Assembly: GCF_002923755.1 (NCBI RefSeq)
Contig: NZ_PGFZ01000007.1
Span: 184,246-248,245, forward strand
Direction of reading: 5' to 3'
From: Methylovulum psychrotolerans
Lineage (GTDB): Bacteria; Pseudomonadota; Gammaproteobacteria; Methylococcales; Methylomonadaceae
Length of the DNA stretch: 64,000 bases
Below, piece after piece: positions 2,805 through 20,014 of this stretch (position 1 is its first letter; every line of letters begins with the position of its first letter). A program made the translations under genes and the position numbers. Below the pieces are notes generated by a model, which was not told the origin of the DNA, searched no databases, and saw only the letters and a list, made by a program, of their open reading frames with translations.

Positions 2805-3758
2805 TTAGACCGAATTATAGGGGCCTAAAAATCGCACACCGTTAAAATGGATTAAATGGGATGGAGCATCTGCTACCCATACTTCTGTTTCCCATGCGAT
2901 TTCACCAAGATACCTCCCCATGACGGCACGGTTTGGGAAGGCTGTCACATAGACCAGTCCTGCGCTTGCGGTAGCAAAAAGGCTGGCGAGTTCATTATGC
3001 CGTTTGCCGTCCACGGGGCCGTGGCTGGTGACGGATTCAACGAGCAGTAACCAGTTTTTCGCACTAAAATACAGCACGACATCGGGCATTTTGCCATGCG
3101 AATCGACATTGACACCCAACTTGGACAGTAAAGCCGCGTTAAAGTAACGCCATTTGTCACCTGTATCCCCGACATACACTAACAGGCTGTCCGGTGCGAA
3201 ACGCGGGGCAAATTCTTCAATAATGGCCCGAATCAGTTCACTGTGCCCACCTGGGCTTAAATTTATGCTCTTCCCTGGGGCAATGTTTACCGGAATGCGG
3301 TTTTGCATCCGCTCTTGCGTGTAACGGGCGAGTAGCGTTTCGGTTTCGGACAAGTAAGCCGCTAATTTGTCAGGCCATGCTGGTGTTCCGAAAGTGCGTA
3401 GCAATGCCAGCGCATTAGGTTCGATTTGATAGACGGCCTTCGGACTGTTGACGGGACGGTCAGGCCGGTCTGGGTTGTAAAGCGCGATACCAGCATCACA
3501 GAATTGGTGCATTGTTTGGCGGCGGAACGTTTCCCGTGTGTTCGGCGCATAGTCTTTGTGATAATGTTCCCGCACCCAATCCATTATTGGGGTAATGCCT
3601 AGCAACGGGTTTTCTGCTTCGTGCCATGATGTGTTTGGGGTCATATTCAGCAAAGCCAACAAGCAAAGTGCGGAACGCTCATTGTGTTGCTTGCGCGACA
3701 ACCCCAGCGTGATAATGATTTGCCGGGCGGATTCGATAAGAGGATGGGCATTACTCAT
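2805..3758 (-). CDS. Type II restriction endonuclease, BsuBI/PstI family
   Basis: Type IIP restriction enzyme, 317 residues. The BsuBI/PstI C-terminal catalytic domain is recognisable from VYVGDTGDKW (194-203), KMPDVV (223-228), the LLLVES block with its acidic residue (238-242) and SHGPVDGKR (245-253). Together these form the PD-(D/E)xK-like core of the family. Known members cut CTGCAG. The ATG overlaps the stop of the upstream methyltransferase gene as ATGA, so the two are translationally coupled. No controller (C) protein gene is seen. The N-terminal 180 residues should contain the helical DNA-reading domain. I see no frameshift or lost motif, so the enzyme looks functional. Confidence 0.92.
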   Translation of the reverse strand: MSNAHPLIESARQIIITLGLSRKQHNERSALCLLALLNMTPNTSWHEAENPLLGITPIMDWVREHYHKDYAPNTRETFRRQTMHQFCDAGIALYNPDRPDRPVNSPKAVYQIEPNALALLRTFGTPAWPDKLAAYLSETETLLARYTQERMQNRIPVNIAPGKSINLSPGGHSELIRAIIEEFAPRFAPDSLLVYVGDTGDKWRYFNAALLSKLGVNVDSHGKMPDVVLYFSAKNWLLLVESVTSHGPVDGKRHNELASLFATASAGLVYVTAFPNRAVMGRYLGEIAWETEVWVADAPSHLIHFNGVRFLGPYNSV

Positions 3759-5230
3759 GAATTTAGCTCCCTTAGTTTTTCATCTATCATCATCTGCGTA
3801 AGAGTGCCGCCGGCAGCCATAGCCCATTTGCCCATTTCTATGAGCATACTGCGGCTTGGATACTTCATTATCTTTAGGTCGGTTGCGTTAACCTGTGTGT
3901 GTCCGCTAAAGCGCCGGAAACTTTCATCAAACGCGGTCGTGTTGAGAAATAAGCATAAACCGTGTGCCAATGTTGCCGATAATCCCTGTTTGTTTTCATG
4001 AAATAGATTTAAGTGGTTCTCAAAGCCCAATAATGGGGCATCCTGAAATGCCGTTGGTTCAACGACACTGGCGACGATGCGGCGGCGCTCTTCTTTAGCT
4101 GAGAAACGGCGCACTACACAATAAAAGCTATTGGGATAAAGCCACTTTTCTGTTTCAAGGTTACGGTGGATCGCATTGGGTTTTTTACTGCCCACTTTTG
4201 GCCATTCGAGGCCCCCGCGACTAAAATGGCCTGGATACAATAACGGTGCTGTACCGGACTCCGGCATAGCGCATAAATGTTTTTTTAACCGAAAATCTAC
4301 TACTGGGCCGGTTGAAACAGTGATACCTAAATCCGCTAACGAATAGCGGATAGCGGGCGACAATTCTATGGTGTTTTTTTCACATGATGTAGGTATATGG
4401 ATAAATTGGTTGGGGTCATCAGCAAAGACAATATTATCGAATGGGTGTTCGTAGCTGGCAAAATCGCTAAAGCTGTCATCGGTAGAGGTTGACACCGTCA
4501 CCGACTCTTGTGGTCGGCCTCGTTCTAGCCTGATGATAATGTTCTCTTGTAGCACAGCATCGGCTTTGAAGGCTTTACGGCGCGATGCGAAAAGATGTAT
4601 GTGGCGAATGGCCGCGTGTTTTAGTACGAAGTCACGGAAAGGCCGATAATAAGAGCCGTTGCAGAAGCTGCGGGGGATGATGGCGACGACTTGCCCTTCC
4701 GGTGCCATTAATAAAAGCGTTAGTGCAACAAAAGCCGAATAAAGGTTGACTGTCTCAATGCCTACTTGGCGAAGCAACAAACGGTGGCGGGAATTGCTGC
4801 TTATTTTTTTATAGGGTGGGTTGAGGATGGCGTGGGTGAAAACCTGTTGGCCGGATTGAATAGTGTTAACGGCGGCCTCAATGAAATCGCCGCCGATAAT
4901 GGTAAACAAAAGCGGCGTTTTATTTTTATGCTGGGATAGGGAGCGGTGCAATTGCGCATGAACGGAGTTATCCAATTCAAATGCGCTTAGCCGAATATTT
5001 TGGGCATTCAACTGGCCGGATGCGCATCTTTCTAAAAATGCGCTGGCAAGGGAGCCGGTGCCTGCACCTGCATCAAGTAAGGTGCAGGTGTCGCTTAAGG
5101 GGGCGGGAAATAAGCTAGCCATGAATTTTGCTATGTTTGCAGGGGTGAAAAACTGCCCTAACAGCGATTTTTTGTCCGCACTGGTTGGTTCTGATAGCTG
5201 TAACGTAGTCTGTTCAAGAGCCGTTAACAC
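3755..5230 (-). CDS. N6-adenine DNA methyltransferase of the PstI/BsuBI-type R-M system
   Basis: Protects the host DNA from the partner nuclease by N6-adenine methylation. The gamma-type motif order is seen: motif X GQFFTP (about 25-30), SAM-binding motif I DAGAGTG (about 53-59) and catalytic motif IV NPPY (about 137-140), followed by a long target-recognition part. I set the start at a GTG (5230) preceded by AAGGA about nine bases upstream. The frame remains open to a TTG at 5257, but nothing like a ribosome site precedes that codon. The gene overlaps the endonuclease by four bases. A short membrane-protein gene lies upstream on the same strand, 68 bases away. Confidence 0.9.
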   Translation of the reverse strand: MLTALEQTTLQLSEPTSADKKSLLGQFFTPANIAKFMASLFPAPLSDTCTLLDAGAGTGSLASAFLERCASGQLNAQNIRLSAFELDNSVHAQLHRSLSQHKNKTPLLFTIIGGDFIEAAVNTIQSGQQVFTHAILNPPYKKISSNSRHRLLLRQVGIETVNLYSAFVALTLLLMAPEGQVVAIIPRSFCNGSYYRPFRDFVLKHAAIRHIHLFASRRKAFKADAVLQENIIIRLERGRPQESVTVSTSTDDSFSDFASYEHPFDNIVFADDPNQFIHIPTSCEKNTIELSPAIRYSLADLGITVSTGPVVDFRLKKHLCAMPESGTAPLLYPGHFSRGGLEWPKVGSKKPNAIHRNLETEKWLYPNSFYCVVRRFSAKEERRRIVASVVEPTAFQDAPLLGFENHLNLFHENKQGLSATLAHGLCLFLNTTAFDESFRRFSGHTQVNATDLKIMKYPSRSMLIEMGKWAMAAGGTLTQMMIDEKLRELNS

Positions 5231-5298
5231 GGTTGATATTCCTTGGTTAAGTCCCAATAAAGAAAACGATATAAGTCTTAGGCGATTTAAAGGGCGAT

Positions 5299-6812: not shown

Positions 6813-6947
6813 AGGCGGCTGACGCTGATGCCGTTAAGTTCCGCCCCTCTGCATTACCTCTCCTAAGCGATAGTTTGAGAAAAAGCCTTGCCACGGCGTT
6901 ATAATGGTGTGATCAACATCCCGGTCGCCTGGCAAAAGTATCAAACC

Positions 6948-9900
6948 ATGAAAATACTTTCACTCTATTTTAAAAACATCAATTCCTTAATGGGCGAAAG
7001 CCGTATCAGTTTCAGTAAAGGCCCGATAGCCAATACGGGCGTTTTTGCAATTACTGGCGCGAACGGTTCGGGAAAATCCAGCATTTTAGATGCCATCACC
7101 TTAGCCCTGTATGGGGAAACCGCCCGTTTTGACCGCCCGGCTGCGACGGTCATTAGCCAAAACGCGAATGAAGCTTATGCTGAGGTCGAGTTTAAACTGG
7201 GGGATGACAAGTATCAGTCCACTTGGCAAGCCCAACGTGCACCCCATGACGGTGAAGAGCAAACTGTTGCTATGCAGTTGACCCGTTTGTCTGACGGTGC
7301 GGTACTGGCGGATGGCTCTGTTGCGGTATGCTCGGCTATCAGGGATTTGACGGGGATGAGTTTCCGCGGCTTTACCCGCTCCATGCTGTTGGCACAAAAT
7401 GAGTTTACGGCTTTTTTACACGCGCTCGACAACGAACGCATGGATATTTTAGAGACGTTAATCGGCACCGACATTTATGCCGATTACCGTAATGAAATCA
7501 TCGGCAACGCCGACAAGGCGCAACAGGCCGTCGATGCCCTGAAACAAGAATTGGCTGGCTTAAAACCGCTCACCTCCGCCGAGCAAGAAGCATCGGAACA
7601 GGATCTGCAAGATTATCAGGAACAAATCCAAGAGCTTAAAGAAGCCCAAAAACAGCTGGAGCAGCAACAGCACGCTTTGAAGAACACCGCCAATCTGCAA
7701 ACCCAAGTCGTCGAACAGAAAAAACGCCTGAAAGACCTGCAAACCCAATTGGCGGCCAACGGGCAAACCTTAGCCGAGATTGCGGTCGCCAAACAGGCGT
7801 TAAACTTTCAGGATGACCTAAAGGCGCTGGAGAGCCAACAACAGACTTTACAACAACATAAAGCCGCTTGGGAAGCCCTGCAAAACGAGCAGCACTTTCT
7901 GCGCGAGCAAGTGGGCGATAATTCCGACTTGGCCGCCAAAGCTGCTGGCCTGTCTTTTGCCGAGCAGCATCAGACCCTAGACGGGATTAAGTTCGCTATT
8001 AACCAAGCCCGTTTGGATAAGCAAGAGGCGTCGGCGCAATTACAGGCTTTAGAAACTCAATTGGGCGAAAAAAACGCCGCTTTAGCCGAGGTGCAGGCTT
8101 GGCTGGCTGACCATGCAGGTGATGGGATATTGCTGGATAACTTTCCCGAAACCGCGCCACTGAAAATACTCCGTGCCGAACTGAATGTGCTGAGCGATGC
8201 GTATAAGCAATCAGGGAATGCGGTCAAAGCCCACTCTACGGCAATAAAAAACACCCAAACTGCCCTGAGCCAAACCCAAGCGGATATTGCCGCACTCCAG
8301 CAAGAACTTGCCGATGAAGAGCAAGCCCGTGCCGCCTTGCTGCAAGGCCATCATGCTGATGAAATTGACAGCCTGAAAGCCGAACAAGAAGGACGGCTGA
8401 AACAATTTCAGCAAGTGTTGGACGTGGCAAACCAGTATCAAAAAATCAGCCAACCGGGCGGTGGTCTGTTAAGCCTGTTTGGCCGCAAACCGCCGTTAAT
8501 CGAAGACCCGGATGCTTTAAAAGCCGAATTGGCACAATTGCGCGATATTATAAAACGCGAAGAGAATATTAAATTGGCGCTTGAAAGTGCCGTCAGCCGC
8601 GAAGCCTTGGTGAAAAAGCTGCTGGGCGAGCGTGTCCATTTGGTCGACGGCAAGCCGTGCCCCTTATGCGGGGCGAAAGAACACCCTTATTTGAAACATG
8701 CTCCGGTCTTGGGCAATTCGGTACAGGCGTTGACCGACCAGCAAATGAAGTTGCGCCAACTGGCGGCACAAACCGACCAGCTCAATAAGCGCATTGTCGC
8801 CGCGCAAAAGTATGCCGAGCAGAACCGCGCCACCCAAGCACAATTGCAAAGCATTAAAGATGCTTGGTTAAGCCAGTGCAACCGCCTGAACAAGGCCACT
8901 GCCGATGCCGATATCGGGCAATTGGCGGTGATGGAACAATGGTTGAAAGAAGAGCGTGATGAATTAAAAAACATCATCGCTTTAGGAGAGCAGTACCGCA
9001 AAAAAACCGCTACTATTGATAAGATCAATGCGGCAATTGCCAAAAATGAAGCCACGTTGAGCCAATTGCACAGCGAGGCCGAGCAACTGGCGGCGGCTAC
9101 CGCCGACATTAACGAAGCCCATCTGGTCAACGAAGCCGCTTTAATTCCCTGCCGCGAACAAGAACAGGCTTTAGCCGTACAGGTGCAGGCGCAATTGACC
9201 GCTTTGGGCGAAACCATGCCCGGCAAAGGCAAAGAAGACGCGTTTTTTGACCGACTTAACAGCCGCCGCCAAGATTACCAGACCCATCAATTCCACAGCA
9301 GCCATTTTATTGAGGAGGTGGCCGGACTGGAGAGCCGATACGCGGCTAACCAAGCCACGCTCCAGCAAGCCGATGCCGACATCGACCGCTTGATGGCTAG
9401 CCTGCAAAGTGAAGAACTGATCGGCGTACACCTTGCTTTGATCGAAAAGCAACAGTTGATCGCCGAAAAAGAGCGCGTCCTGAGCGAGCAGGAGGGCGTA
9501 GTGGGCGCTTGCCTGCAAGCGTTGCAAATCCGCTTGCAAAGTTCACCGTTCGCCGGCTTGGCCGAATTGCGCCAAGCCCTGCAATTTGCCGCCCAAGAAC
9601 CGGTATACCTGAAACACCAGGGCGATATTGAAGTTCAGCTTACCGCCAAGCAACAGCAATTGGAGAATCTGTCCGCCGAACTGGATACGGATTTTATGCT
9701 GGCGGAAACCGCACCGGACCCGGACGACATTTATCGGCAATTGACCCAACTGGCGGAAAAGACCGACATTGCCCAACTGGAGATTCAACGGTTGCAAAAA
9801 CGTTTGGCACAACACCAACAAACCCAGCAACGTTACACACAACTGACCGCCCAACTACAACAGCGCGAACAGGAGGCGCAACCGGCTTTGGCAGAACGCG

Positions 9901-10382
9901 CCATTCTCGACAATGAAAACGGTATGGCCTTCCGCCGCCGGGTGCAAATCCGCATCGCCGCGCAATTGCTGGAAAAGACTAACCGTATTTTAGAGAAAAT
10001 CAGCCACCGTTATTATCTGCGCCACAATACCGAGCAGCCGGGCTTATCTTTAGAAGTGGAAGACACCGCCCAAAATAACCGCCGACGTGCCCCCAAAACC
10101 CTGTCCGGTGGAGAAAGCTTTGTGGTCAGCCTCGCCTTGGCGTTAAGCCTGTCGGAACTTGCCAATAACAATAAATCGGTCGAATCGTTATTTATTGATG
10201 AAGGTTTTGGCTGTCTTGATGGCGACTCGCTTACTGTCGTGCTGAGCGCTTTGGAGAAACTCCCTGCTTACGGTAAAACTGTCGGCGTTATCTCGCATCT
10301 GGAAGGGGTGCGCAAACGCATAAAGACCCAAGTGCAGGTGGTGAAAAAATCCAATGGCGTGGGGGTTTTGAAAGTGGCTTGA
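6948..10382 (+). CDS. sbcC: SbcC, ATPase subunit of the SbcCD nuclease
   Basis: Large SMC-like ATPase (1144 residues from the ATG at 6948; the frame is open 20 codons upstream from a TTG without supporting sequence). The N-terminal Walker A is GANGSGKSS (about 37-45). Two long coiled-coil arms rich in Gln, Glu and Ala meet at the zinc hook CPLCGAKEHP (about residue 570). The C-terminal lobe has the ABC signature LSGGESF (about 1051) and Walker B SLFIDEGFGCLD (about 1080). With SbcD it cleaves hairpins and protein-blocked DNA ends. sbcD normally precedes sbcC in one operon, but here the gene upstream is GST and no sbcD exists in the window. Confidence 0.93.
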   Translation: MKILSLYFKNINSLMGESRISFSKGPIANTGVFAITGANGSGKSSILDAITLALYGETARFDRPAATVISQNANEAYAEVEFKLGDDKYQSTWQAQRAPHDGEEQTVAMQLTRLSDGAVLADGSVAVCSAIRDLTGMSFRGFTRSMLLAQNEFTAFLHALDNERMDILETLIGTDIYADYRNEIIGNADKAQQAVDALKQELAGLKPLTSAEQEASEQDLQDYQEQIQELKEAQKQLEQQQHALKNTANLQTQVVEQKKRLKDLQTQLAANGQTLAEIAVAKQALNFQDDLKALESQQQTLQQHKAAWEALQNEQHFLREQVGDNSDLAAKAAGLSFAEQHQTLDGIKFAINQARLDKQEASAQLQALETQLGEKNAALAEVQAWLADHAGDGILLDNFPETAPLKILRAELNVLSDAYKQSGNAVKAHSTAIKNTQTALSQTQADIAALQQELADEEQARAALLQGHHADEIDSLKAEQEGRLKQFQQVLDVANQYQKISQPGGGLLSLFGRKPPLIEDPDALKAELAQLRDIIKREENIKLALESAVSREALVKKLLGERVHLVDGKPCPLCGAKEHPYLKHAPVLGNSVQALTDQQMKLRQLAAQTDQLNKRIVAAQKYAEQNRATQAQLQSIKDAWLSQCNRLNKATADADIGQLAVMEQWLKEERDELKNIIALGEQYRKKTATIDKINAAIAKNEATLSQLHSEAEQLAAATADINEAHLVNEAALIPCREQEQALAVQVQAQLTALGETMPGKGKEDAFFDRLNSRRQDYQTHQFHSSHFIEEVAGLESRYAANQATLQQADADIDRLMASLQSEELIGVHLALIEKQQLIAEKERVLSEQEGVVGACLQALQIRLQSSPFAGLAELRQALQFAAQEPVYLKHQGDIEVQLTAKQQQLENLSAELDTDFMLAETAPDPDDIYRQLTQLAEKTDIAQLEIQRLQKRLAQHQQTQQRYTQLTAQLQQREQEAQPALAERAILDNENGMAFRRRVQIRIAAQLLEKTNRILEKISHRYYLRHNTEQPGLSLEVEDTAQNNRRRAPKTLSGGESFVVSLALALSLSELANNNKSVESLFIDEGFGCLDGDSLTVVLSALEKLPAYGKTVGVISHLEGVRKRIKTQVQVVKKSNGVGVLKVA

Positions 10383-10420
10383 GGGTAGGGCGTGACAACA
10401 GTAGCCCAACATGCAGAAGA

Positions 10421-10449
10421 GCCTTGCAGGTTTTAATGACCCGCAAGGC
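10421..10449. terminator. Hairpin between convergent sbcC and the tubulin operon
   Basis: GCCTTGCAGG (10421-10430) pairs with CCCGCAAGGC (10440-10449). It sits between the sbcC stop and the end of the convergent minus-strand operon, with a TTTT in the loop but no clean T-tail. A shared terminator is inferred. Confidence 0.4.
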
Positions 10450-10473
10450 AGCAAGCATACGATTACACTGTAT

Positions 10474-11274
10474 TTATTTCAAACAAAATAGCTTGTGTTT
10501 TTCCAAGATGTGGCGGAAATCGCCTTTATTACGCAAATTTGCCAAATCGGGATCCTTACGCAAGACATCGCAGTCACTGAAGCCTAGTTCCAGTGCCTTA
10601 TCTAGGGGTTCCAGCGCCAAATCGAGCTTTTTTATGGTGGCGTAGTAAGTGGCCAAATTATAAAAAGCCACCGCATTTTCTTCATCACATTCCGTGGCTT
10701 TTATCAGGTCTTTTTCGGCAAGGTTCATTTTGTTGTCTTGCCAATAAGTAATGCCGCGGTTCATGTAGCCCGTGGCGAAGCAACGGCCCGCATCGTCTTC
10801 TTGTTTAATCGCCAAATTAAATTCGACTAGCGCATTTTGCAGGTTTTCGCCGCGTGTTTTAGGGGAACCTTTCGCCAAGGCCACAAACATCATGCCCTGT
10901 TTGATATGCTGCTGGGTTTCTAAAGTAGGTTCGGTTGATGTCGGCTCGGCAGGTGTGGGTGTGGCGGCAACGGGCTCGGCAGGTGCCGGCTCTGTAATGG
11001 TTGCTGTGGTCGGCAAAGGTTCTGGCCCCGTTTTAGGCTGGCTATTCAATGCCCATAGCAAAGCGCCCGTCAGTGACAGCGCTCCTAGGCCACCGCCTGC
11101 CATCAGCAAGTTTTTCCGACGTTTACGCGCGTCGTCAATAGCGCTGCTATTGTTCGCTTGCGTTTGCAGCGTTGTCCCACATTCTGGACAACGGCCATCT
11201 TCAGGTATCTCTATCCATTCATCCTGCATTGCCAGATCGCAACTGGCCCGATTTCTACATTTCGCGCTTGCCAT
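10474..11274 (-). CDS. Zinc-ribbon / transmembrane / TPR protein, last gene of the tubulin operon
   Basis: A 266-residue protein with three parts. The N-terminal zinc ribbon has Cys 6, 12, 29 and 32 (CRNRASCDLAM...CPECG). A single transmembrane helix follows at about 52-73 (LLMAGGGLGALSLTGALLWAL), then a Pro/Thr/Glu linker, then TPR-like helices (YMNRGITYWQDNKMNLAEKDL; AVAFYNLATYYATIKKLDLALEPLDKALELG). This predicts a cytoplasmic zinc ribbon and a periplasmic TPR scaffold. The start at 11274 has GGAG upstream; the frame extends five codons further to a TTG that overlaps this ribosome site. It lies 29 bases after the tubulin-like gene. Molecular role unknown; partner binding by the TPR is inference. 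Confidence 0.75.
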   Translation of the reverse strand: MASAKCRNRASCDLAMQDEWIEIPEDGRCPECGTTLQTQANNSSAIDDARKRRKNLLMAGGGLGALSLTGALLWALNSQPKTGPEPLPTTATITEPAPAEPVAATPTPAEPTSTEPTLETQQHIKQGMMFVALAKGSPKTRGENLQNALVEFNLAIKQEDDAGRCFATGYMNRGITYWQDNKMNLAEKDLIKATECDEENAVAFYNLATYYATIKKLDLALEPLDKALELGFSDCDVLRKDPDLANLRNKGDFRHILEKHKLFCLK

Positions 11275-11303
11275 GATTAGTTTCTCCAAAAGTTATTATA
11301 AAG

Positions 11304-14300
11304 TTATAGGGGATTATCGATAAAAGCCATGGCAGTTTTTGTGCTATCCCGCAATTTACCGTAAAAAATATCTTCAACATTATGGGCGCGATGGCTTAAA
11401 GCTGTGCTTAGCTGTAAGCGCAAGATGGCTTTTAAGGCTTCCCGATTAGTGGCTATTTTGTAGTGATCAGACTTCAGTAAGGGGTGAAGCGCTTTTTCCA
11501 GATAAAAAACCTGCTCTTCTGTGGCACTGTTCAACACGTCTTGCAAATTGGCGGCTGATAATGTTTCAACTTCCGGGCCGCTATCCAGTAAGGCCACTAT
11601 CTCGTTAGGATAGAAGTGATATTCGGGTAAGTTGTCGGCATCGCGGGTTTCCAAGCGCCAACGCCGTTTATTGGTGGCAGTATCTTCTTGGGGTTGCAGC
11701 AACTCCAAGGCCTTGGCCAATTGATATAACGGCAAGATCGTGTTACCCATTTGATCGGGACGGGGGCGGAATAATTCCGGTAACCGGGTAGCCGGGTGGT
11801 CTTCAATATGCACTTCCAAGCGTGCCCTAGCGGGATTTTGCTGTAAGCGCAAATCGTATTTTTCTTTGAGAAATTGCAGCGGCTGTAAAAAACGCATGGG
11901 AAAGCCATACTTAAAGCAAATCAGGGAAATTTGGTTAAGGTTACGGCTGCTGTCAACAATGCACAGCGTAATGCCGGGGGTTTGGTTGCTCATAAAGAGG
12001 CTGGCAAGCTCATCGCGAAAACTTTTGACTTCATCGCAACGCGGTAAAATAACCGCCATGACGGCATTAGGGGCAGATGTGATTTCGCTTTGGTTAAAAC
12101 GCATAAAGGTTTGGGTGCTGGCAACAATATCGCGGACATAAGAACGTAACTTTTCTTGGTCTTGAAACTGTCCGGCTAGCCGTGACACAATATTGGCCCC
12201 TATCAGGCGGGTACTTATACTGGTGGCCTCGTCATGTGCTTGTTGGGAGTTATCACGCGCCACCTGCTCAATAATATTTTTTAAGCTGCCGTGATAAAGC
12301 AAGGCACCAAAATATTTTTCTTTACTACGCACATCCACTTTATTGGTTTCGGCGGCGTTGATAAAGTCGGAGCGTGAGCGTTGCGCCCATTGCTGCTGTT
12401 TGTTTTCCGAGCCTAACAAGCTACGGCTAAAATCCCGCACTTTCTCAGGCTCGTAAAATTTCAGCAAATTTTGCTTAATATCCGTCGTCTCTTGCAGCCG
12501 ACAGGTGGCGGCTCGGCGTTGCTCAAAAAAAACTTGGCCGTCTTCGAGAGTCCTTCTAAGGTCGACAAAAATCGGTTGTAGCTTATCACGCAGCTCAATA
12601 ACACAGCGTTGCAACAATTGCTCGGCAAAGCCCCAGGCAATATGCCACGTTTTTAGCTCATAATATTCTTTTAAACATTCGCTTTGCGTGTCAAATAAGG
12701 CTTCCCGTTTGCCCGCCATTTTGCCGAAAATGCCGACATTGCCCCAAGTTTCTTTGTTTTTGGAAATAATTGTCAGGAGTTCGGTACGGCGGGCTTCCAT
12801 GCCTTTTAAGCGGTCGGCAATTTTTACGCTACGGCTACGCAAATCTTCGACCAGTTCGCTTAACAAGGTTTGCAAATCGATAAAGCCATAGTCGCCTTCT
12901 TGCCATTTGTAGAACATCCAAGCCTGTATGGATTGGGTGACTTCGGCAATATGGGTGTTCTCGCGCCCTAAATCATCTTGCTTGGATTTATAAAAAACTT
13001 CCACGCCGATTTTTCTAAAGCGCTTGTCGTAATAGTCCTGAAAAGACTTTTGCAGATTATCCAGCCTGTCATCACGCCCTTTGCTGACGGGTGACAGCCA
13101 TGCCGTACTTTTTAAATCGTTAGCCGTTTGCGCCCAATCGCCGCTAATATCAGGCCAGTGATTTTCACGCTCCCCTTCCAATAAGCCTTCAGATAACGTA
13201 ATTTGGTTATTGGTCAGTTTCCAAGGACGGCGGTTAGCGTCTTTTTGGACAAACTCGCCCCATGACAGGTTTTTTATTTCTGCCCGGTAGCGGGTGTCAC
13301 CTGGCATCCAGTTGTTATACAGCATTTGTAAAAGAGATTGTTCGGCAAAACAAGCCGCCAAATGCTCGCGGATCTCTTCATCTGGAATGACGATTTTTTT
13401 AACACCAAATGTTTGTAGGCGCACAGTGCGTAATTTAAACTGCGCGTCACTGGCCTTCGCTTCATCAGGGATATTAAAGTTTTCCAGCGAAATGGCGGAC
13501 TTAACATTTTGCGGGATTTGTGCGCCGGTATCATCCAGCAGAAAAACGCGCTGATAAATCAGTTGGGCAAATAATTGGGTGACTTCCTGTACGGGAATTT
13601 TAATATTGGCTTCGTTGACGTTATCTAAGACAAAGCAGCCTTGTACGCGGTCTTTTAAGGCGGAAACATTATTCTCGCTGACTTTTTCAAAACGTTGTGT
13701 TTGTCCCGTCAGGTCAATTGGCGCAAATAGCGGGCCACCTTTATGGCTGGATTCGCTGGCATCGGAGACCAGATAGGCGTTTAACTCTTGCAGTGCCGCG
13801 TAGCCATTGGCGTAATAATTGGTTTTTTCGCCATTGCTCGCCCAAGGTGAGTTTTCTTCGGGCAAGAGCACATAGAGATAAATAGGATACGCACTAGAGC
13901 TGGCAAATCTGGCGCGCAGTTGCGCCAGTACATGTAAAAAGGCACCGCTTCCCGTGCCGCCCGCCAATCCGCAACAGATATGGAACTGCACCCCTTTTTG
14001 TGTGCTGGCGTTTTCCAGTTGGTCGACCAGCGTCAGCACATGGGTGATAAAGTTGTTACATTCCGGTTCAAATAAAGACACACCTAAACGGCGGATTTGC
14101 CCGCCTGCGGTTTCATTGATATTCATGGAGGAAAAAATTTCCGACCAATCTTCTTTTCTGCCGATATAACGGTGGGTTATCGGATAATTTTGCGGATCGT
14201 TCAGGCGTACGGCCAGATTATTCTGCGAAATAGGTAACAGACTTTCTTTATTTAAGCCAATGTCGCTGCCAATTTCCTCTTGGGTGCGCCATTGTTCACT

Positions 14301-14483
14301 GGCGGCCAAATCAGGTTTGCTGGAATCGACATAAAGGTATTTGATATAAATCGGCTTTTCGGGCTTTAATTTAGATTGGTTCGGCTCATTGCAACGAAAT
14401 TCTTCGTAAATGGCCTTCCGCATATTTTTTATGGTCTTACCGCCGGTTCCGCCCAGGCCGATAATTAAATGGTTGTTAGTCAT
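11304..14483 (-). CDS. Tubulin-like GTPase (Tubulin_2 / FtsZ-like family), 1059 residues
   Basis: Very large protein with an N-terminal tubulin/FtsZ-type nucleotide fold. GLGGTGGKTIKNM (9-21) resembles the first glycine loop, and GLAGGTGSGAF (172-182) is the tubulin signature GGTGSG that binds GTP phosphates. FtsZ is under 400 residues, so the remaining roughly 700 residues, helical and charged with few family landmarks, are extra domains. No transmembrane helix is evident. Comparative genomics has described such large tubulin-like proteins (Pfam Tubulin_2) as FtsZ-like families predicted to remodel membranes. Here it is fifth in an operon with a caspase lipoprotein and membrane proteins, which supports action at the envelope. 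Confidence 0.85.
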   Translation of the reverse strand: MTNNHLIIGLGGTGGKTIKNMRKAIYEEFRCNEPNQSKLKPEKPIYIKYLYVDSSKPDLAASEQWRTQEEIGSDIGLNKESLLPISQNNLAVRLNDPQNYPITHRYIGRKEDWSEIFSSMNINETAGGQIRRLGVSLFEPECNNFITHVLTLVDQLENASTQKGVQFHICCGLAGGTGSGAFLHVLAQLRARFASSSAYPIYLYVLLPEENSPWASNGEKTNYYANGYAALQELNAYLVSDASESSHKGGPLFAPIDLTGQTQRFEKVSENNVSALKDRVQGCFVLDNVNEANIKIPVQEVTQLFAQLIYQRVFLLDDTGAQIPQNVKSAISLENFNIPDEAKASDAQFKLRTVRLQTFGVKKIVIPDEEIREHLAACFAEQSLLQMLYNNWMPGDTRYRAEIKNLSWGEFVQKDANRRPWKLTNNQITLSEGLLEGERENHWPDISGDWAQTANDLKSTAWLSPVSKGRDDRLDNLQKSFQDYYDKRFRKIGVEVFYKSKQDDLGRENTHIAEVTQSIQAWMFYKWQEGDYGFIDLQTLLSELVEDLRSRSVKIADRLKGMEARRTELLTIISKNKETWGNVGIFGKMAGKREALFDTQSECLKEYYELKTWHIAWGFAEQLLQRCVIELRDKLQPIFVDLRRTLEDGQVFFEQRRAATCRLQETTDIKQNLLKFYEPEKVRDFSRSLLGSENKQQQWAQRSRSDFINAAETNKVDVRSKEKYFGALLYHGSLKNIIEQVARDNSQQAHDEATSISTRLIGANIVSRLAGQFQDQEKLRSYVRDIVASTQTFMRFNQSEITSAPNAVMAVILPRCDEVKSFRDELASLFMSNQTPGITLCIVDSSRNLNQISLICFKYGFPMRFLQPLQFLKEKYDLRLQQNPARARLEVHIEDHPATRLPELFRPRPDQMGNTILPLYQLAKALELLQPQEDTATNKRRWRLETRDADNLPEYHFYPNEIVALLDSGPEVETLSAANLQDVLNSATEEQVFYLEKALHPLLKSDHYKIATNREALKAILRLQLSTALSHRAHNVEDIFYGKLRDSTKTAMAFIDNPL

Positions 14484-14496
14484 TAGGGTTCCTTAT

Positions 14497-15288
14497 TTAT
14501 TTAAAATGTGCCGAGTGAATGCGGATTTGTTTTAATGCCGAGAGGCCTATCCATAGCAGGCATAGTAGGTAATTCAGCACAATGAAGCCGGTTATGCCGA
14601 TGCGCGTAAGCCAAATGAGGCGGATTATTTGCGGAGCCAATTGCGTATACAATTGGGCAGCGGCAAGCTGGATGCCTTGTGCATGCGGATAAATGCCATT
14701 TGGGTGTTCTTTGAAATACGCTTGGACATCCTTGCTGACCGCCTCGGCTGACAGGTCGGCAGAGGTATTGATAATGATCGCCAGTAACGGAAAGTTTTGC
14801 CGGAAATTTTCTAGCGCGGCTTCGGCAGTCATTTTTGAGGTGCTGACGATGGTTTCCGGGTGAGTGAGCGGCATACTTTTGCCGCCCTGTTCAGGTGGTG
14901 GGGAATGGCTGAAATCTTCATGTCCCTGCTTTTTGACCGCATAATATTGGCGGTTAAATTGCTCGTATTGCCAAGTGCGGTCGTTACTTAGCTGATCCCG
15001 CCAAACCGAAATAATCGCCTCAAAACTCGGTTTCAGATAAGTGGATGCGGCAAACAGGGGTATGCACAACGTCATCATCATGGCTAATACGCCACAGAGG
15101 CAGTGTTGTCCCCACGTCAGGCGATAAGGTTTATAAAATAACTGCCCGAAGACATTGCTGGCAAACCATAACGCCGCGCCAGACACTAAGCCGACGGCGG
15201 ATAACAGTAGGTACAACCGAGCATTGTTGGCCGCCAGCAAGTGCGTCGCATTGGCTAAGACAGTAAGGAAGTTAATGAAGTAATTCAT
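14497..15288 (-). CDS. Multispanning membrane protein of the tubulin/caspase operon
   Basis: Unrecognised 263-residue membrane protein. Hydrophobic segments lie at about 24-48 (LYLLLSAVGLVSGAALWFA), 63-84 (LCGVLAMMMTLCIPLFAAS) and 225-255 (RIGITGFIVLNYLLCLLWIGL). The large central part (about 90-215), with many Gln and Tyr residues, is probably one extracytoplasmic or cytoplasmic loop. It starts 12 bases after the caspase stop and ends 13 bases before the tubulin-like start. An anchor linking the cytoplasmic GTPase to the lipoproteins would fit the context, but nothing in the sequence proves it. Confidence 0.7.
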   Translation of the reverse strand: MNYFINFLTVLANATHLLAANNARLYLLLSAVGLVSGAALWFASNVFGQLFYKPYRLTWGQHCLCGVLAMMMTLCIPLFAASTYLKPSFEAIISVWRDQLSNDRTWQYEQFNRQYYAVKKQGHEDFSHSPPPEQGGKSMPLTHPETIVSTSKMTAEAALENFRQNFPLLAIIINTSADLSAEAVSKDVQAYFKEHPNGIYPHAQGIQLAAAQLYTQLAPQIIRLIWLTRIGITGFIVLNYLLCLLWIGLSALKQIRIHSAHFK

Positions 15289-15300
15289 ATTGGCTGCCGC

Positions 15301-16734
15301 TTAGTAAAACAGACCCAAATTCTCGTAGCGGTGTGGCAAGCTCTCCATTTGCGGTGTTTGGCGCTTATTGCCAAAATAACGCGGATGGGTCAGTACATGA
15401 TAGGAAGTTCTTTCTTTGGCATAATCGAAGGCCTTGGCGACTTGCCCGTCTTCCCGCTTAAGGCCATCTACCAGATAATAAGTGAATATGGAGTTTTTCA
15501 TCCGCGACTTCTTTTGGAAGTTGGAGGTTTCATTTCCCGATGTCGCGGTCAAAAAAACCCGACCAAGGTGCTGGGCGGCGACATTTTTCGGTTCGGTCGG
15601 CGGTATCGGCAGTTGGGTATAATCAAAGTCTTCCTCGGAACCTTCAACTAAGCCAGTGGGACGGGAGGCCGGAAATGGTCCTGCATTAAGTGGAGGATCA
15701 ACAATTAAGTCTTTGCTGCCCGCACCAATAAGATTGCCGATTTGTTGGTCCGATAAGCTGTAGGTATATTGGCTTTCACGTTGGACATATTGGTCGCCGC
15801 CTAGCGGTTTCATAAACGTGCCCATGGCCGCACCACTGTAACAGGTATCGACAATGGCGATAAACTTGCCCGCATGATTTTCTTTTAGGAAACTTTGCAA
15901 TTCTTCTTGGGAAATGGCCGTTTGCATAACGTGGTAACGGGAATTGGCTTCGTCGATAATCTCTTGGTCGGACGGCTGCGGATTTGTTGTTGCTAACGGT
16001 TTGGCCATATCGTAAGGCACGATTTCTAGCTGCCCCAATTTATCGGGCGGCAAACCATGAGTACTGATATAAAACAACACGGTATCTTGGGCAGAAGCGA
16101 CCGCCTTGATTTTATTCATGGCGGCAATAATGTTTTGTTTGGTCGCCGCGCTATCGATCAGTTGCTCGGTTTCAAAGCCTTTGTTCCGCAACAGCTTATC
16201 CAATGCCAAAACATCATCGTCAGCGGTTTCTATGCCTTTGTCGGGGAAATTCCTAAAAATAGACACCCCTACCAGTAAGGCATATTTATGCCCGGATTGG
16301 CTGAGTGAAGCTTGGTCGGCTGGTGGCGTATAAATTTTTTCTAAGGTGATTTCCCGGACATTTCTGGGTGTTATCGGCGAAACGGCCAAGCTGCTTGCAC
16401 CTACCAAGGTTTGCACTACCAAAAACGCCCGGTCAACTTCCGTTTCGTCCTGATAATCGCCGCGTAACTGCAAGCGTCCGGTGCTGTCATAGCCCACATA
16501 GCCGCCCGCCATGCCCGCTTGCTTAATTAATTTGGAGGCACGCTCGCAATCCCCGATTTTAATGTTGCTATTGGCAATATGGGATGCTTGGCAACCTTGG
16601 GCTTCTTCCTCGGCGGTGATATTGTAGAGCATTTTAGAGCCAACGGTCGCACAGCCGCTTAACAATAATAGGCTGGCAACTGCAACTAGTCGCCCAGTGC
16701 GGATGCAAAAACGGAATTTGACGGTTTGGGACAT
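15301..16734 (-). CDS. Caspase-fold (peptidase C14) lipoprotein
   Basis: Cysteine peptidase of the caspase/metacaspase clan attached to the membrane as a lipoprotein. With the ATG at 16734 it has 477 residues. Signal peptide and lipobox LLSGC (Cys28) come first, then a linker domain, then the p20-like fold: KYALLVGVSIF (about 150-160), DDDVLALDKLLRNKGF, TVLFYISTHG with catalytic His226, and FIAIVDTCYSG with catalytic Cys298. The dyad is intact. The second gap-rich half includes VFLTATSGNETS, a typical later strand. Lipidation places the protease outside the cytoplasm, unusual for a death-type caspase. It precedes the membrane protein and tubulin-like genes closely; DUF4384 domains, often fused to caspases, here form a separate gene upstream. 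Confidence 0.88.
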   Translation of the reverse strand: MSQTVKFRFCIRTGRLVAVASLLLLSGCATVGSKMLYNITAEEEAQGCQASHIANSNIKIGDCERASKLIKQAGMAGGYVGYDSTGRLQLRGDYQDETEVDRAFLVVQTLVGASSLAVSPITPRNVREITLEKIYTPPADQASLSQSGHKYALLVGVSIFRNFPDKGIETADDDVLALDKLLRNKGFETEQLIDSAATKQNIIAAMNKIKAVASAQDTVLFYISTHGLPPDKLGQLEIVPYDMAKPLATTNPQPSDQEIIDEANSRYHVMQTAISQEELQSFLKENHAGKFIAIVDTCYSGAAMGTFMKPLGGDQYVQRESQYTYSLSDQQIGNLIGAGSKDLIVDPPLNAGPFPASRPTGLVEGSEEDFDYTQLPIPPTEPKNVAAQHLGRVFLTATSGNETSNFQKKSRMKNSIFTYYLVDGLKREDGQVAKAFDYAKERTSYHVLTHPRYFGNKRQTPQMESLPHRYENLGLFY

Positions 16735-16823
16735 AATTATTGCCTGGCAGTTACAAATAACGTTTGTGGATAGTACATGCTGTTCGGATAATATCCACAA
16801 ACGTATAGGTTAATGGGTTAAGG

Positions 16824-17501
16824 TTACTGGCATCGGTTCACGCCGTCACTGGCGACGGTGTAACAGACATTTAACGTGCCGCCGGCAATTTCTGTATTAT
16901 CCTGCGCGTTCAGCAATTTGACTTGGCTGTAATGGGGGCCTTGTTCAGTGCTGCTATCGAGCGAGACAGGAAGGTTATAATCGCCGCCACAGCTTTTGGT
17001 GTTGGCTTTACTTAGCTGGTTATCAATGCTGATTTTGACGGGGATAGCTTGGGGAGCGCCGTTAATGGTTGGGGTGGCTAAATCCATTTTAAACGTGATT
17101 TTGGGTTTTTCACCTGGCTTAACCAACAGCAACGAATTGGCTGCGTCCAGCCGCATAACCGCTTTAGGTTGGGTTGCGTTAGCAGGATAAGCCATGCGTT
17201 TTTTTACCGAAGCGCAATCCATAACAGGGACGGATTTTTCTGCCGCTTCATCTAAAGAGGCGGCCAAATAGCCCGCTAATGCCCCGGCCGCCAAACCGGC
17301 GGCGATACATTCCATGCTGTTCTTGCCGTTTGTCAGTTTGTCGCATAACACTCCCGCGCCTGCGCCTACTGCCACACCGGCCAGCACACCCGTACCGGTA
17401 GAGCCCATTGCCGAACTGGCTTGCTGGATGCTGTTGCAACCGCTGAGTAATAAGGCGCCGGTAACAGCCGTGGCAATAAGTTTACAATGCATTTTTTTCA
17501 T
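16824..17501 (-). CDS. Glycine-zipper lipoprotein
   Basis: A 225-residue lipoprotein: MKKMHCKLIATAVTGALLLSGC (lipobox Cys at residue 22), then two Gly/Ala-rich membrane-interacting stretches (about 33-53, GSTGTGVLAGVAVGAGAGV, and 66-85, AAGLAAGALAGYLAAS). A beta-rich C-terminal half with four further Cys follows, probably immunoglobulin-like and disulphide-bonded (CGGDYNLPVSL, LNVCYTV, NRCQ). The ribosome site AGGA precedes the ATG. It is the second gene of the operon, 20 bases after the DUF4384 gene. Glycine zippers can oligomerise or insert into membranes, so a pore or an outer-membrane platform is possible; this is inference. Confidence 0.75.
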   Translation of the reverse strand: MKKMHCKLIATAVTGALLLSGCNSIQQASSAMGSTGTGVLAGVAVGAGAGVLCDKLTNGKNSMECIAAGLAAGALAGYLAASLDEAAEKSVPVMDCASVKKRMAYPANATQPKAVMRLDAANSLLLVKPGEKPKITFKMDLATPTINGAPQAIPVKISIDNQLSKANTKSCGGDYNLPVSLDSSTEQGPHYSQVKLLNAQDNTEIAGGTLNVCYTVASDGVNRCQ

Positions 17502-17521
17502 AATTTTCCTGTGAGTGATAG

Positions 17522-18331
17522 TTAACGGTGAATCAAATTAAAGTCGACGGATAAAATTCTGCCCGTATCGAGGGTATTGGCGGGAATAACGGCATAACTT
17601 GCCGGTTGCGCTGAAACCGGGTCTTCTTCGGCAAATAAATCTTTAGAGCCGCTGCCATAGTTATTTTTGACGCAATCAATGGCCGCTCCGGCATTTTCCT
17701 CGTTAAATAAGTCCTTAGAGCCGGAACTGGAACACGCGCTATAAGAGGTTTGGTTGACGTAACTGACAGGTGCTGCCGCTGAACCATTATCTGTTGGTTC
17801 ATCATAGATAGGCATTTTAGTCAGTAATATGCTGACTTTTTCACTGCCGGGGGTGTTATCAAAACGGATGGCGCTGTTATTGGGGATGGTTTGGACGATG
17901 CCGGGCTGAATAAGTTGGCTTAATTGCCCACGGGCCGGATACAGCTTATTGAAACGCCCTGAGCTGCCTGCATTCATCACATAAAGATAGCCTGGGGTAT
18001 TGCTTTTTACTTTGAGTTGGATGCGGTCACCGCTTTGGAAGGTATGGTTGGTGGTAACCCGTTGGCTAGCACCGCTCTCAGTTTGTAGATCAATCCAATA
18101 TTGCAAGCCTGCATAGCTTTGTGCGACTTTTGTGGTGTGCTGTTTTACGGTTGGTTTGGTGATAGGTGCTGTTTCCGTATCGCTAGGCGTGTCGCTGCGC
18201 ATGATGGTTGTGCCTTCGCTTTCAAACAGGGATTTGGCTCCCGCTTCCGCCCATACCGATACCGGAGCTGCTAATGTTACCAATAAGAAGGCGAGAGAAA
18301 CATTCTCGCTGCTATTAAAATGTTTTTTCAT
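17522..18331 (-). CDS. Secreted DUF4384 protein with repeated KDLF motif
   Basis: First gene of the six-gene operon, 269 residues. A signal peptide (to about residue 29, VSVWAEA) precedes a DUF4384 domain (about 75-185: YWIDLQTESGASQRVTTNHTFQSGDRIQLKVKSNTPGYLYVMNAG..GRFNKLYP). The flanks carry three copies of a short motif: AGAKSLFESEG near the mature N-terminus, then SGSKDLFNEEN and SGSKDLFAEED in the C-terminal tail. The DUF4384 domain commonly accompanies caspase-fold domains, matching the caspase gene two positions downstream. The motif triplet could be a docking or cleavage site for a partner. The ribosome site AGGAT lies nine bases upstream of the ATG. Confidence 0.8.
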   Translation of the reverse strand: MKKHFNSSENVSLAFLLVTLAAPVSVWAEAGAKSLFESEGTTIMRSDTPSDTETAPITKPTVKQHTTKVAQSYAGLQYWIDLQTESGASQRVTTNHTFQSGDRIQLKVKSNTPGYLYVMNAGSSGRFNKLYPARGQLSQLIQPGIVQTIPNNSAIRFDNTPGSEKVSILLTKMPIYDEPTDNGSAAAPVSYVNQTSYSACSSSGSKDLFNEENAGAAIDCVKNNYGSGSKDLFAEEDPVSAQPASYAVIPANTLDTGRILSVDFNLIHR

Positions 18332-18952
18332 GATTTAAGATCCTGTCAAAATAAATGCCTATAAGAAGAAAAAGGCAGGCGAGCATAAGCTTGCACTGTG
18401 GTGCGGTCAGGTAGAAAGTGTACAAATCGGATAAATCCGCTTATTAAGAGGTCAGGGCTATGAGGGTTAGACGGCTGGCTAGGTCGGCAAGCCCTATTAG
18501 TGAAGGATAACGGCGGTTGCCAGTGTTGATGGCGTGAAAAAGTCGGCTTTCCAAGCGGATAGCCGCTCATGGCCCGTGCTGTTGAAGCGGGCTTGCCAGA
18601 GACGTTCTGCCTAATAAGCTTAAGATGTTTCACGTTACAAATACTTAATATAATGTTGTGCGCTGACGGTGTTTATGAACTTAAAAGCGTGTTATTTAGT
18701 CGATATAATATTGACTTATTATTAAGGTTTTCGCAAGAAAAACTAATAATATTTTATAAAGTGAAATAGTGCCTATTTATAGGTTAAATAATACCTTTTG
18801 TAGAAATAAAAGCATTTTTTATTTTTATGCAATAAATTGATTTTATTGATTTATATTGTTTTTTTGCGGATTAGAGGTATTTCGCCGTTATTTGGGCTAC
18901 AAGCCTGTCTGATGGCGGCGACATTGATGATATTGCTATTTATTGCGGAGTA
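18332..18952. other. Intergenic region upstream of the tubulin operon
   Basis: About 620 bases without a convincing gene. The left half (to about 18620) has normal GC and short inverted repeats around AGGGCT/AGCCCT (18443-18495). The right half (18625-18880) is strongly AT-rich with long A and T runs. It should contain the divergent promoters of the DUF4384-led operon (minus) and the secreted 352-residue protein (plus). I could not pick a convincing -35/-10 pair for either, and saw no known riboswitch fold. Confidence 0.5.
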
Positions 18953-18955
18953 ATG

Positions 18956-20014
18956 ATGGGCATTGGGAGTGTGTGTAAACGGCTGAGGCTAAGGCATCAG
19001 GTGGTGGTATTGAACAGGCGGTATTTGTCCGCCGCGATTATCATCGGGTGCTGCCTGAGCGCTTCGGCAGGGTTTGCCCGTGATGGCGCTAACCAGGCCG
19101 GACTGACGGCTTATCCTGATTTTGCCCAAGCGTGCTTGGCTTTTACGACAGGCTATGGCTTGGCGGCGGGCGATAACACGCCGCGTCCGCCAACGTTGGG
19201 GCGGCAGCGGGGGCAATGCGGGTCACAGCACAAGCCGCTGGTTTTTTCGGTGACGCATGAAAATAGCGCCAATAATCACAAGGATTCGGCGAATTACGAC
19301 CAAAAAATCCGGTCTTACATGGCAGATTACGACTATGATGCCGATATGGGCCGCTGGGTTAGCGCCGATCTGGTCGGCAACCCCAATGCCCCGACACTGG
19401 TGCTGGCATTAGATACAGTTAACTTCCGCAAGCAAAATGTCACAGGTTGGCCTTTACAATACGGGCATTTGTTTGCCGGCATTAATGACCCGTCAGTCAG
19501 CGCCCCGTTGGCGCAGCCAATAACCGTTGAGTTTGATTTGCGTATCAGTGCCGACGTGAAACCGCGCTTATATAAGGGCTACAGCGGCCAACGTATCCTC
19601 TTAGGGGTCTTGGCGGATTGGGCGGAAGCGCCGCCGCGCAGTAACCGCGCCCACTTTATCGAATTTGATTTTAGCCAAGCGGCAGGTTACTCACAATCCT
19701 ATGGCGACCCTGTGCGCCCGCTCTGCCAAGACATAGCCTACGACCGTTGTTTTTACGACGTTGACGGCAAGTATGCCGAAGGCCGGGAACTGAGTTTTGC
19801 CGCCCAACCCTACGCCACGCGGCTAAAAAAACGGGGGTGGACGCATATCCGCATTCCCCTTAGCCAAGCCATCCAAGCTTTACATTGGGTTTCTCCTCCC
19901 AAAACGTGGGATGAAGCCGCTCTTAAAGGGCTTTATCTGGCGATTGAATCCGAAGGCGCGACCCGCACCAAGCTTGAAATTAAGGGCTATCGCGTTTATG
20001 GTGGCGGGTTGTAA
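18956..20014 (+). CDS. Secreted protein of unknown function
   Basis: A 352-residue exported protein I do not recognise. A long basic n-region (CKRLRLRHQVVVLNRR) precedes a hydrophobic core (YLSAAIIIGCCLSASAGFA), with predicted cleavage near residue 43. The mature part is rich in aromatic residues and beta-strand-like patterns (TLVLALDTVNF, ITVEFDLRISADV, HFIEFDF, WTHIRIPLSQAI, KLEIKGYRVYGGG), suggesting a jelly-roll or lectin-like sandwich. There are two close ATG codons; GCGGAG fits 18956 better. It is divergent from the tubulin operon and not obviously co-transcribed with anything. A carbohydrate-binding role is a guess from the fold pattern only. Confidence 0.65.
   Translation: MGIGSVCKRLRLRHQVVVLNRRYLSAAIIIGCCLSASAGFARDGANQAGLTAYPDFAQACLAFTTGYGLAAGDNTPRPPTLGRQRGQCGSQHKPLVFSVTHENSANNHKDSANYDQKIRSYMADYDYDADMGRWVSADLVGNPNAPTLVLALDTVNFRKQNVTGWPLQYGHLFAGINDPSVSAPLAQPITVEFDLRISADVKPRLYKGYSGQRILLGVLADWAEAPPRSNRAHFIEFDFSQAAGYSQSYGDPVRPLCQDIAYDRCFYDVDGKYAEGRELSFAAQPYATRLKKRGWTHIRIPLSQAIQALHWVSPPKTWDEAALKGLYLAIESEGATRTKLEIKGYRVYGGGL

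Follow-up and report, generated by a model that had tools for sequence, protein, structure and literature searches.

A caspase-bearing Tubulin_2 operon in Methylovulum psychrotolerans and its possible role as an envelope system

A six-gene operon of the methanotroph Methylovulum psychrotolerans was analyzed within a stretch of 64,000 nucleotides (contig NZ_PGFZ01000007.1, positions 184,246 to 248,245), which is referred to below as the window. Its genes are carried by six minus-strand open reading frames (ORFs) that span window positions 10474–18331 and are named A to F in transcription order. They encode a secreted DUF4384 protein (A), a glycine-zipper-like lipoprotein (B), a metacaspase-like lipoprotein (C), a multispanning membrane protein (D), a large tubulin-like GTPase (E) and a zinc-ribbon protein with one predicted membrane helix and a predicted periplasmic TPR domain (F). 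Judged by its recurrence in other genomes, the grouping of caspase, DUF4384 protein, tubulin and zinc-ribbon protein is not due to chance. A reading of the operon as an envelope system, in which a protease module formed by A, B and C would be linked through F to the tubulin E, has in our estimate an evenly balanced prospect of being right.

The set A-B-C-D-E-F was found in identical order in related methanotrophs (seven genomes with the host's own counted, in one of which it is split over two contigs). Of 237 genomes of the host's family 11 had some relative of E, and in eight, the host's own genome included, this tubulin reached an identity of 74% or more. Six of these eight carried A-B-C-D-E-F whole on one contig, one had it divided between the contigs L016 and L028 (the latter being the second half of the G127 operon) and in one the contig (L017) begins inside D. 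Within the methanotroph loci E evolves slowly, at 74–78% identity to the window, and C fast, at 38–42%. The closest tubulins among named contigs belonged to metagenome-assembled genomes (MAGs) of Methylococcaceae, Methylococcales and Methylovulum. Tubulin_2 was also found in 5 of 369 genomes of the class and in 8 of 398 genomes of the phylum, the own genome being counted and one match lying below the cut-off in each case, and in four of 200 genomes from the family to which G745 belongs. In 9 of 399 genomes of the latter family, and in 1/5 and 3/89 genomes of two of its genera, there was a relative of the L070 tubulin. Family relations of these genomes are given as labelled in the database, and family f110 is tentatively taken to be Burkholderiaceae. 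These class, phylum, family and genus searches overlap.

In total 29 Tubulin_2 neighbourhoods, window included, were compared, mostly with flanks of up to 10 kb, some of the stretches being cut by contig ends. Contigs retrieved twice were counted once (L022, L023, L025, L026 and L027 are the same as L015, L012, L013, L017 and L016, and L073 is the same as L024), and L017 was excluded from the caspase counts. Tubulin_2 matches outside the 29 were those of G174 and G678, which fell below the cut-off, fragments in G063 and G1143, and those on three plasmid records (Azospirillum, Thermus and Meiothermus). The caspase family profile matched 11 of the 29 neighbourhoods. DUF4384 and F were present in all 11 (F of L016 on its other contig), and B was found by similarity in nine and in L086 by position together with a sub-threshold glycine zipper. 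D was limited to the seven methanotroph loci. The remaining four caspase loci are distant, one on a Paraburkholderia megaplasmid (L036) and three in genomes of one large family, and their gene order is reshuffled: B-C-A-E-F-F' in L036 and L070, A-B-C-E-F-F' in L086 and A-E-F-F'-C in L049. As membership is kept while the order is reshuffled, a shared function is strongly supported. The first-pass annotation of the window had named homologous operons in which caspase and tubulin are not conserved together as the finding that would speak against its proposal; the two were found to be conserved together with DUF4384. In all four distant loci a further protein with a common part, recognized by eye, follows F (L036 15842–16552, L070 13210–13917, L049 5895–6467 and L086 8439–8807); it is lipoprotein-like in three of them and fused to a second zinc ribbon in L049.

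Gene C (15301..16734, minus strand as all operon features below; 477 aa) matched Peptidase_C14 (PF00656) at 53 bits against a cut-off of 21.4, Pfam matches being judged against the curated cut-offs throughout. Its start was taken at ATG 16734, the ORF list having TTG 16800. Alignment of 11 caspases placed the catalytic residues at His226 (16057..16059) and Cys298 (15841..15843), which are intact as first annotated, and these were invariant in 11/11 together with Ser224 (16063–16065), Asp296 (15847–15849) and Asp174. Ser224 lies two residues before the His and Asp296, the predicted lysine-pocket acid, two before the Cys; Asp174 was placed on alpha-1 by ourselves. We also matched Ser224 and Asp296 to Ser84 and Asp137 of Arabidopsis metacaspase 4 (AtMC4), which keep the linker Lys225 lodged in the active site before Ca2+ sets off self-cleavage (PMC7206013). 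The pocket of TbMCA2 has Asp211 and Asp95 (PMC4357240), and both MALT1 and metacaspase 4 cut after basic residues (PMC4357240, PMC9622860). A profile of C searched against the Protein Data Bank (PDB) gave eight matches, all of them metacaspases (yeast 4f6o with an E-value of 2.3e-7, AtMC4 with 2.6e-7); single-protein PDB searches gave nothing for C or A and one weak match for the tubulin (E-value 0.02). An AlphaFold2 model of C reached a mean pLDDT of 55.9 and a pTM of 0.58, with much of p10 below 50, and its best fold match was MALT1 (7ak0_B; Z 13.1, 187 residues, 3.8 Å) followed by metacaspase 4 (6w8s_D; Z 13.0, 212 residues, 5.5 Å). C resembles metacaspases and paracaspases and is a candidate lysine-specific protease. 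Between G301 and F406 the sole column of the 11-caspase alignment that is at least 10/11 identical is K341, and in a six-member alignment the invariant positions of the same interval include Ser340, Lys341 and Leu343. A BON-like domain at the N-terminus of C is tentative, with scores of 17.0 bits in L086 and 15.4 bits in L070 against a cut-off of 27 and no BON listed for the caspases of the window, L013, L036 and L049. The other caspase match of the genome (L072, contig C1, 5508–8525) is a WD40-caspase protein of 1006 aa whose catalytic Cys is apparently replaced (DTYSAS), and which is probably inactive.

K341 is part of a short motif, [ASG]-K-x-[LMI], that C shares with A. Gene A (17522..18331, 269 aa) encodes a protein with a DUF4384 domain (PF14326, 48 bits against a cut-off of 27) and a hydrophobic N-terminus, in keeping with the secreted DUF4384 protein of the first-pass annotation. 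It holds three copies of the motif: AKSLF (K33, 18224..18238) just after the predicted signal peptide, and SKDLF twice (K206, 17705..17719; K230, 17633..17647) in the C-terminal tail that follows the DUF4384 domain. The copy in C, SKDLI (K341, 15703..15717), lies in the linker between p20 and p10. The motif occurs in the linker of 10/11 caspases and once near the N-terminus, just past the signal peptide, in 11/11 A proteins, and the C-terminal tail of A has two copies in nine of the 11 and one in L049 and L086. Conservation runs on into hydrophobic and acidic residues after the Lys. In L086 the sequences are SKDLFVED (A) and SKDLFVEE (C), and in L036 and L070 the two proteins share KGI-x-F together with acidic residues. 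The pattern taken from the A proteins matched 10/10 linkers at shuffle probabilities of 0.028–0.204 each, with a product of 1.2e-10 over rows that are related. Elsewhere its density was 0.4–0.9 per 1000 aa in B, D, E and F, and 1.2 in the part of C that precedes the linker. When A and C were compared blind to the motif, the motif pair was the best match in L036 (0/150 shuffles), L070 (0/150), L086 (2/150) and L016 (5/150), and with a profile built from A the motif was the top window of C in seven of 10 operons. For most of these comparisons A of L012 was shortened by 140 residues, as its upstream start is probably wrong. The motif counts leave out further pattern matches: two in A of L016, one within the DUF4384 domain of A of L086, and others near p10 in the caspases of L013, L014 and L015.

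Tubulin E (11304..14483, 1059 aa) is an FtsZl1/Tubulin_2 GTPase-like protein (PF13809, 162 bits against a cut-off of 27) with the GGTGSG nucleotide loop at 13944–13961, as had been noted at first. The AlphaFold2 model of E had a pLDDT of 34.4, too low to judge the coiled-coil middle or the helical C-terminus. A viral origin of the tubulin was not supported, as one scan of viral contigs with the window protein returned four pattern matches and no relative.

Gene F (10474..11274; start taken at ATG 11274, TTG 11289 in the ORF list) has Cys 6, 12, 29 and 32, encoded within 11179–11259, and four Cys were readable in 11/11 F proteins. A simple hydropathy scan predicted one membrane helix in 10/11, and the charges mostly, not always, favour a cytoplasmic N-terminus. 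The head is TPR or TPR-like in the caspase loci (TPR_1 at 31.6 bits against 27.8 in the window), with no TPR model listed for F of L049. The earlier description of F as a zinc-ribbon/TPR membrane protein holds for the spacing of the four Cys and for the TPR, while no Pfam zinc-ribbon model reached its cut-off and the window helix fell just below the hydropathy threshold. An F-type match was also present in seven of the 17 neighbourhoods that gave no caspase match (L021, L033, L071, L087, L088, L089 and L091, the ORFs of L088 and L071 being less clear). In those inspected (L091, L021 and L087) the zinc ribbon and helix are alike and the outer part differs. The L091 protein (445–2019) has an outer part made of PBP_like_2 and OmpA, which points to a receptor role for the adaptor family; that of L021 has an outer part of some 430 residues with no assigned domain, and that of L087 has a short one and adjoins a gene for a solute-binding protein. 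F thus has the look of a modular adaptor that spans the membrane, with its zinc ribbon in the cytoplasm and a periplasmic head that changes.

It had originally been proposed that the multispanning protein D is the membrane link between GTPase and protease. D (14497..15288, 263 aa) does have three hydrophobic stretches in a hydropathy scan and is in that sense multispanning as annotated, but it is absent from 4/11 caspase loci while F is present in 11/11. D was accordingly rejected as a general bridge, and F is the likelier link across the membrane. A relative of D adjoins the second tubulin of the same genome, in a Tubulin_2 locus with no caspase match (L021, contig C17, 3745–10640) that encodes the D-like membrane protein, the tubulin, a zinc-ribbon transmembrane protein of 502 residues and a Phytase-like secreted protein. 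By eye only, the outer part of the 502-residue protein resembles the actin-like/Ppx fold. D and tubulin also form a pair in L018 (8624–11687), where the tubulin frame is interrupted, either as a pseudogene or through a sequencing error.

Gene B (16824..17501, 225 aa) is a conserved partner with a lipobox, LSGC, at 17436–17447. Of its annotation as a glycine-zipper lipoprotein the lipobox was upheld; no Pfam glycine-zipper model matched window B, and NCBIfam matches to glycine-zipper/OmpA-type lipoproteins were all below their cut-offs. B and C together differ sharply between two otherwise nearly identical loci. The DNA of L013 and L024 is 98.6% identical along a 6.1-kb segment that opens at the start of D, takes in E and F and runs past them. 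Their proteins are 100% identical for A, 54% for B, 45% for C and 94% for D. In the interval between the early part of B and the end of C, identity was 0.2–0.66 in most windows of 200 columns, gaps counted, and the reading frames are open across both borders of the divergent part. The two loci are from two MAGs whose sample names suggest different lakes. In this one case the B-C pair looks to have been replaced; an assembly error is possible, and would require that two real alleles were joined at matching places. Variation of B and C between strains is expected of a part that faces outside opponents.

The operon as a whole is patchily distributed, as the 8/237 family genomes with a tubulin at least 74% identical indicate. 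No flanking gene occupied the same place across seven methanotroph loci and the window, except between L013 and L024, in a comparison that gave a few remote matches elsewhere and included several short contigs. In L014 about 250 bases separate the end of the operon's last gene from an F-type transfer operon (L014 1–6604) with the conjugation genes traL, traE, traK, TrbI/traB-like, traV and traC, and the L036 operon sits on a megaplasmid. We consider it an open call, even in weight on both sides, that the operon is an accessory, horizontally moving envelope system that works through the relay set out below.

In the mechanism that we propose, a periplasmic metacaspase-type module (A, B and C) would be wired via F to the cytoplasmic GTPase E, with D joining F as a link in methanotrophs. 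C would be kept as a zymogen, mostly lipid-anchored, whose p20-p10 linker carries the conserved K341. On an envelope signal C would cut itself after K341 and then cut A after the same motif, so that A is trimmed near its N-terminus and C-terminal pieces are released. The processed A, or the cleaved C, would be read by the periplasmic TPR of F, and the cytoplasmic zinc ribbon of F would then alter the assembly state of E; signalling in reverse, with E acting on C, is just as possible. The end result would be envelope defence or self-killing. From sequence we infer the cleavage and its order, the binding by the TPR, the assembly of the tubulin, the compartments, which were predicted from simple lipobox and hydropathy patterns, and the end result, and the function may be envelope sensing, conflict or death. 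In its full form, a protease-and-propeptide relay to a cytoplasmic tubulin polymer with B-C as a self/non-self or predator-evasion cassette, the proposal is a tentative one that we think will probably need revision.

A number of observations weigh against this reading. In 17 of the 29 Tubulin_2 neighbourhoods no caspase-profile match was found in the fetched stretch, where the profile may miss distant caspases, and the claim that the six genes form one machine thus stands insofar as the set recurs and falls insofar as the caspase is not obligatory for the tubulin family. Lipid anchoring of the caspase, also claimed at first, is borne out by a lipobox in 9/11 caspases (LSGC at 16651–16662 in C) and not by those of L049 and L086, which lack a match. 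As nearly all of the linker had a pLDDT below 50 in the model of C, it cannot be placed in the active site. The motif was first spotted by eye and tested afterwards. In the motif-blind comparison the motif pair was not the best match between A and C in 6/11 operons, window included, and in L012 it was the best and not significant (115/150 shuffles). With the profile built from A the motif was not the top window of C in the window, L013 and L015, and when A proteins of the same clade were left out six of the seven successful operons weakened to 69–614/4000 shuffles, L070 staying at 0. Matching of the motif between A and C within operons gave a permutation p of 0.0014 over 10 operons with relatedness ignored, and over four diverged operons the true A-C pairing ranked 2 of 24. 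Finally, the linker of the L049 caspase is devoid of the motif.

We read the motif as a self-cleavage site in C and a substrate site in A, and its main rival is a docking peptide through which one receptor, either the TPR of F or B, gathers A and C. The L049 caspase is fused to a DUF4384 domain and has the motif behind it, at the C-terminal end, which corresponds to the placement in A and favours docking somewhat, as do the conservation of the residues that follow the Lys and the constant presence of F in the caspase loci. Cleavage accounts better for the location of the motif in the linker of nearly all of the caspases, where metacaspase 4 cuts itself (PMC7206013), and for the one near-invariant residue being the lysine that a metacaspase needs at P1. 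Docking is a possible explanation that we nevertheless regard as rather improbable.

Two further rivals concern the role of the operon rather than that of the motif, and we judge both to be unlikely, each a little more so than docking. In the first, tubulin filaments shape the inner membrane in a remodelling or vesicle machine and the caspase only trims the complex during assembly. This follows the general proposal made for FtsZl1 by Makarova and Koonin in 2010 (PMC2875224) and agrees with the membrane and secreted partners in the operon; the patchy, mobile distribution and the allele variation of B-C are better suited to a conflict role. The second is classical abortive infection against phage, with the tubulin or F acting as the sensor of infection and the caspase as the effector that kills the cell. 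Other Tubulin_2 proteins do lie in conflict-system loci of the kinds described in PMC7159879, namely beside TIR-AAA and TPR-S in L034 (6388–14848; Tubulin_2 protein of 1381 residues) and MoxR-type AAA and PNP-VMAP-C in L020 (8031–15271; 1430 residues). The window itself holds an Eco57I-type methylase (3755–5257, minus strand) and an SbcC-like ATPase of 1164 aa with PADLOC LmuB-type matches (6888–10382, plus strand) near the operon. Against abortive infection, the only PADLOC match within the operon was to a generic caspase model, with no system core genes; the neighbourhood was scanned for defence genes in part and may contain a defence cluster. Furthermore C has a predicted export signal, which the cytoplasmic caspases of known defence systems are not known to carry. 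The SbcC-like gene, at 335.7 bits against a cut-off of 750, was not supported as a part of the system; it converges on the operon from the opposite strand and had no counterpart in the other loci compared. That the genes adjoin by chance, or form an ordinary chromosomal cluster without a common function, is very improbable: each family also occurs alone, and the host genome gave two matches each for caspase and DUF4384, but the same set recurs in reshuffled orders in distant genomes.

Regarding the layout of the locus, the ORFs agree with the first-pass annotation both in the six minus-strand genes and in the close spacing interrupted before the caspase gene, with intergenic gaps of 20, 89, 12, 13 and 29 bases given the starts chosen for C and F. 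No Rfam family was found at gathering score within 10000–19500, and promoter and terminator counts were within one standard deviation of shuffles. The host genome comprises 5.19 Mb in 97 contigs.

Of the known systems, Tubulin_2 envelope operons, tubulin conflict systems and orthocaspases with DUF4384 have been described already, and no description of the caspase-bearing class was found: no caspase-tubulin operon appeared among the matches listed in a search of mainly open-access literature, which left out most subscription journals and bioRxiv and was not targeted at the motif. FtsZl1 (Tubulin_2, PF13809) envelope operons with vWA, OmpA and GTPase neighbourhoods were described by Makarova and Koonin in 2010, who left the role of the large FtsZl1/Tubulin_2 proteins open (PMC2875224). 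The window operon is like these in pairing a large GGTGSG-bearing GTPase of tubulin type with membrane and secreted proteins and unlike them in that its six genes gave no vWA, P-loop GTPase, kinase or OmpA matches; in their place are the caspase, DUF4384, the glycine-zipper-like lipoprotein and the zinc-ribbon/TPR protein. No caspase partner was found in the portions of PMC2875224 examined. An objection of that time, namely that partners in the periplasm are out of reach of a tubulin in the cytoplasm, would be answered by the bridge that F may provide.

The GAP1-N2 GTPase systems (Kaur et al. 2020, PMC7159879) likewise combine tubulin, zinc-ribbon and transmembrane components in a conflict-system setting. 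No GAP1/TRAFAC GTPase, vWA or HSP70 is present among the six genes, and the tubulin form of the GAP1-N2 systems is restricted to firmicutes and actinobacteria (PMC7159879). Caspase and DUF4384 are associated in orthocaspases too, DUF4384 being present in 23 cyanobacterial ones (PMC8283722); the domain is described in orthocaspases in PMC7475262 and PMC6426788 as well, and L049 is a caspase-DUF4384 fusion. The difference is that the two are here mostly separate genes within a tubulin operon.

The closest functional parallel to the proposed relay would be plant metacaspase 4 and Propep1. C has the same dyad, the pocket Ser and Asp and the conserved linker lysine, and A, as a separate secreted partner with lysine sites, is a candidate substrate. 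C differs from metacaspase 4 in being exported and mostly a lipoprotein, in its tentative BON-like N-terminus and in its tie to a tubulin, and its cleavage is predicted only. The prediction is a concrete one, as it names four lysines, K33, K206 and K230 in A and K341 in C, and the B-C pair that swaps alleles hints at what the system faces outside. If true, the operon would be a bacterial counterpart of plant metacaspase-propeptide signalling, located in the periplasm.

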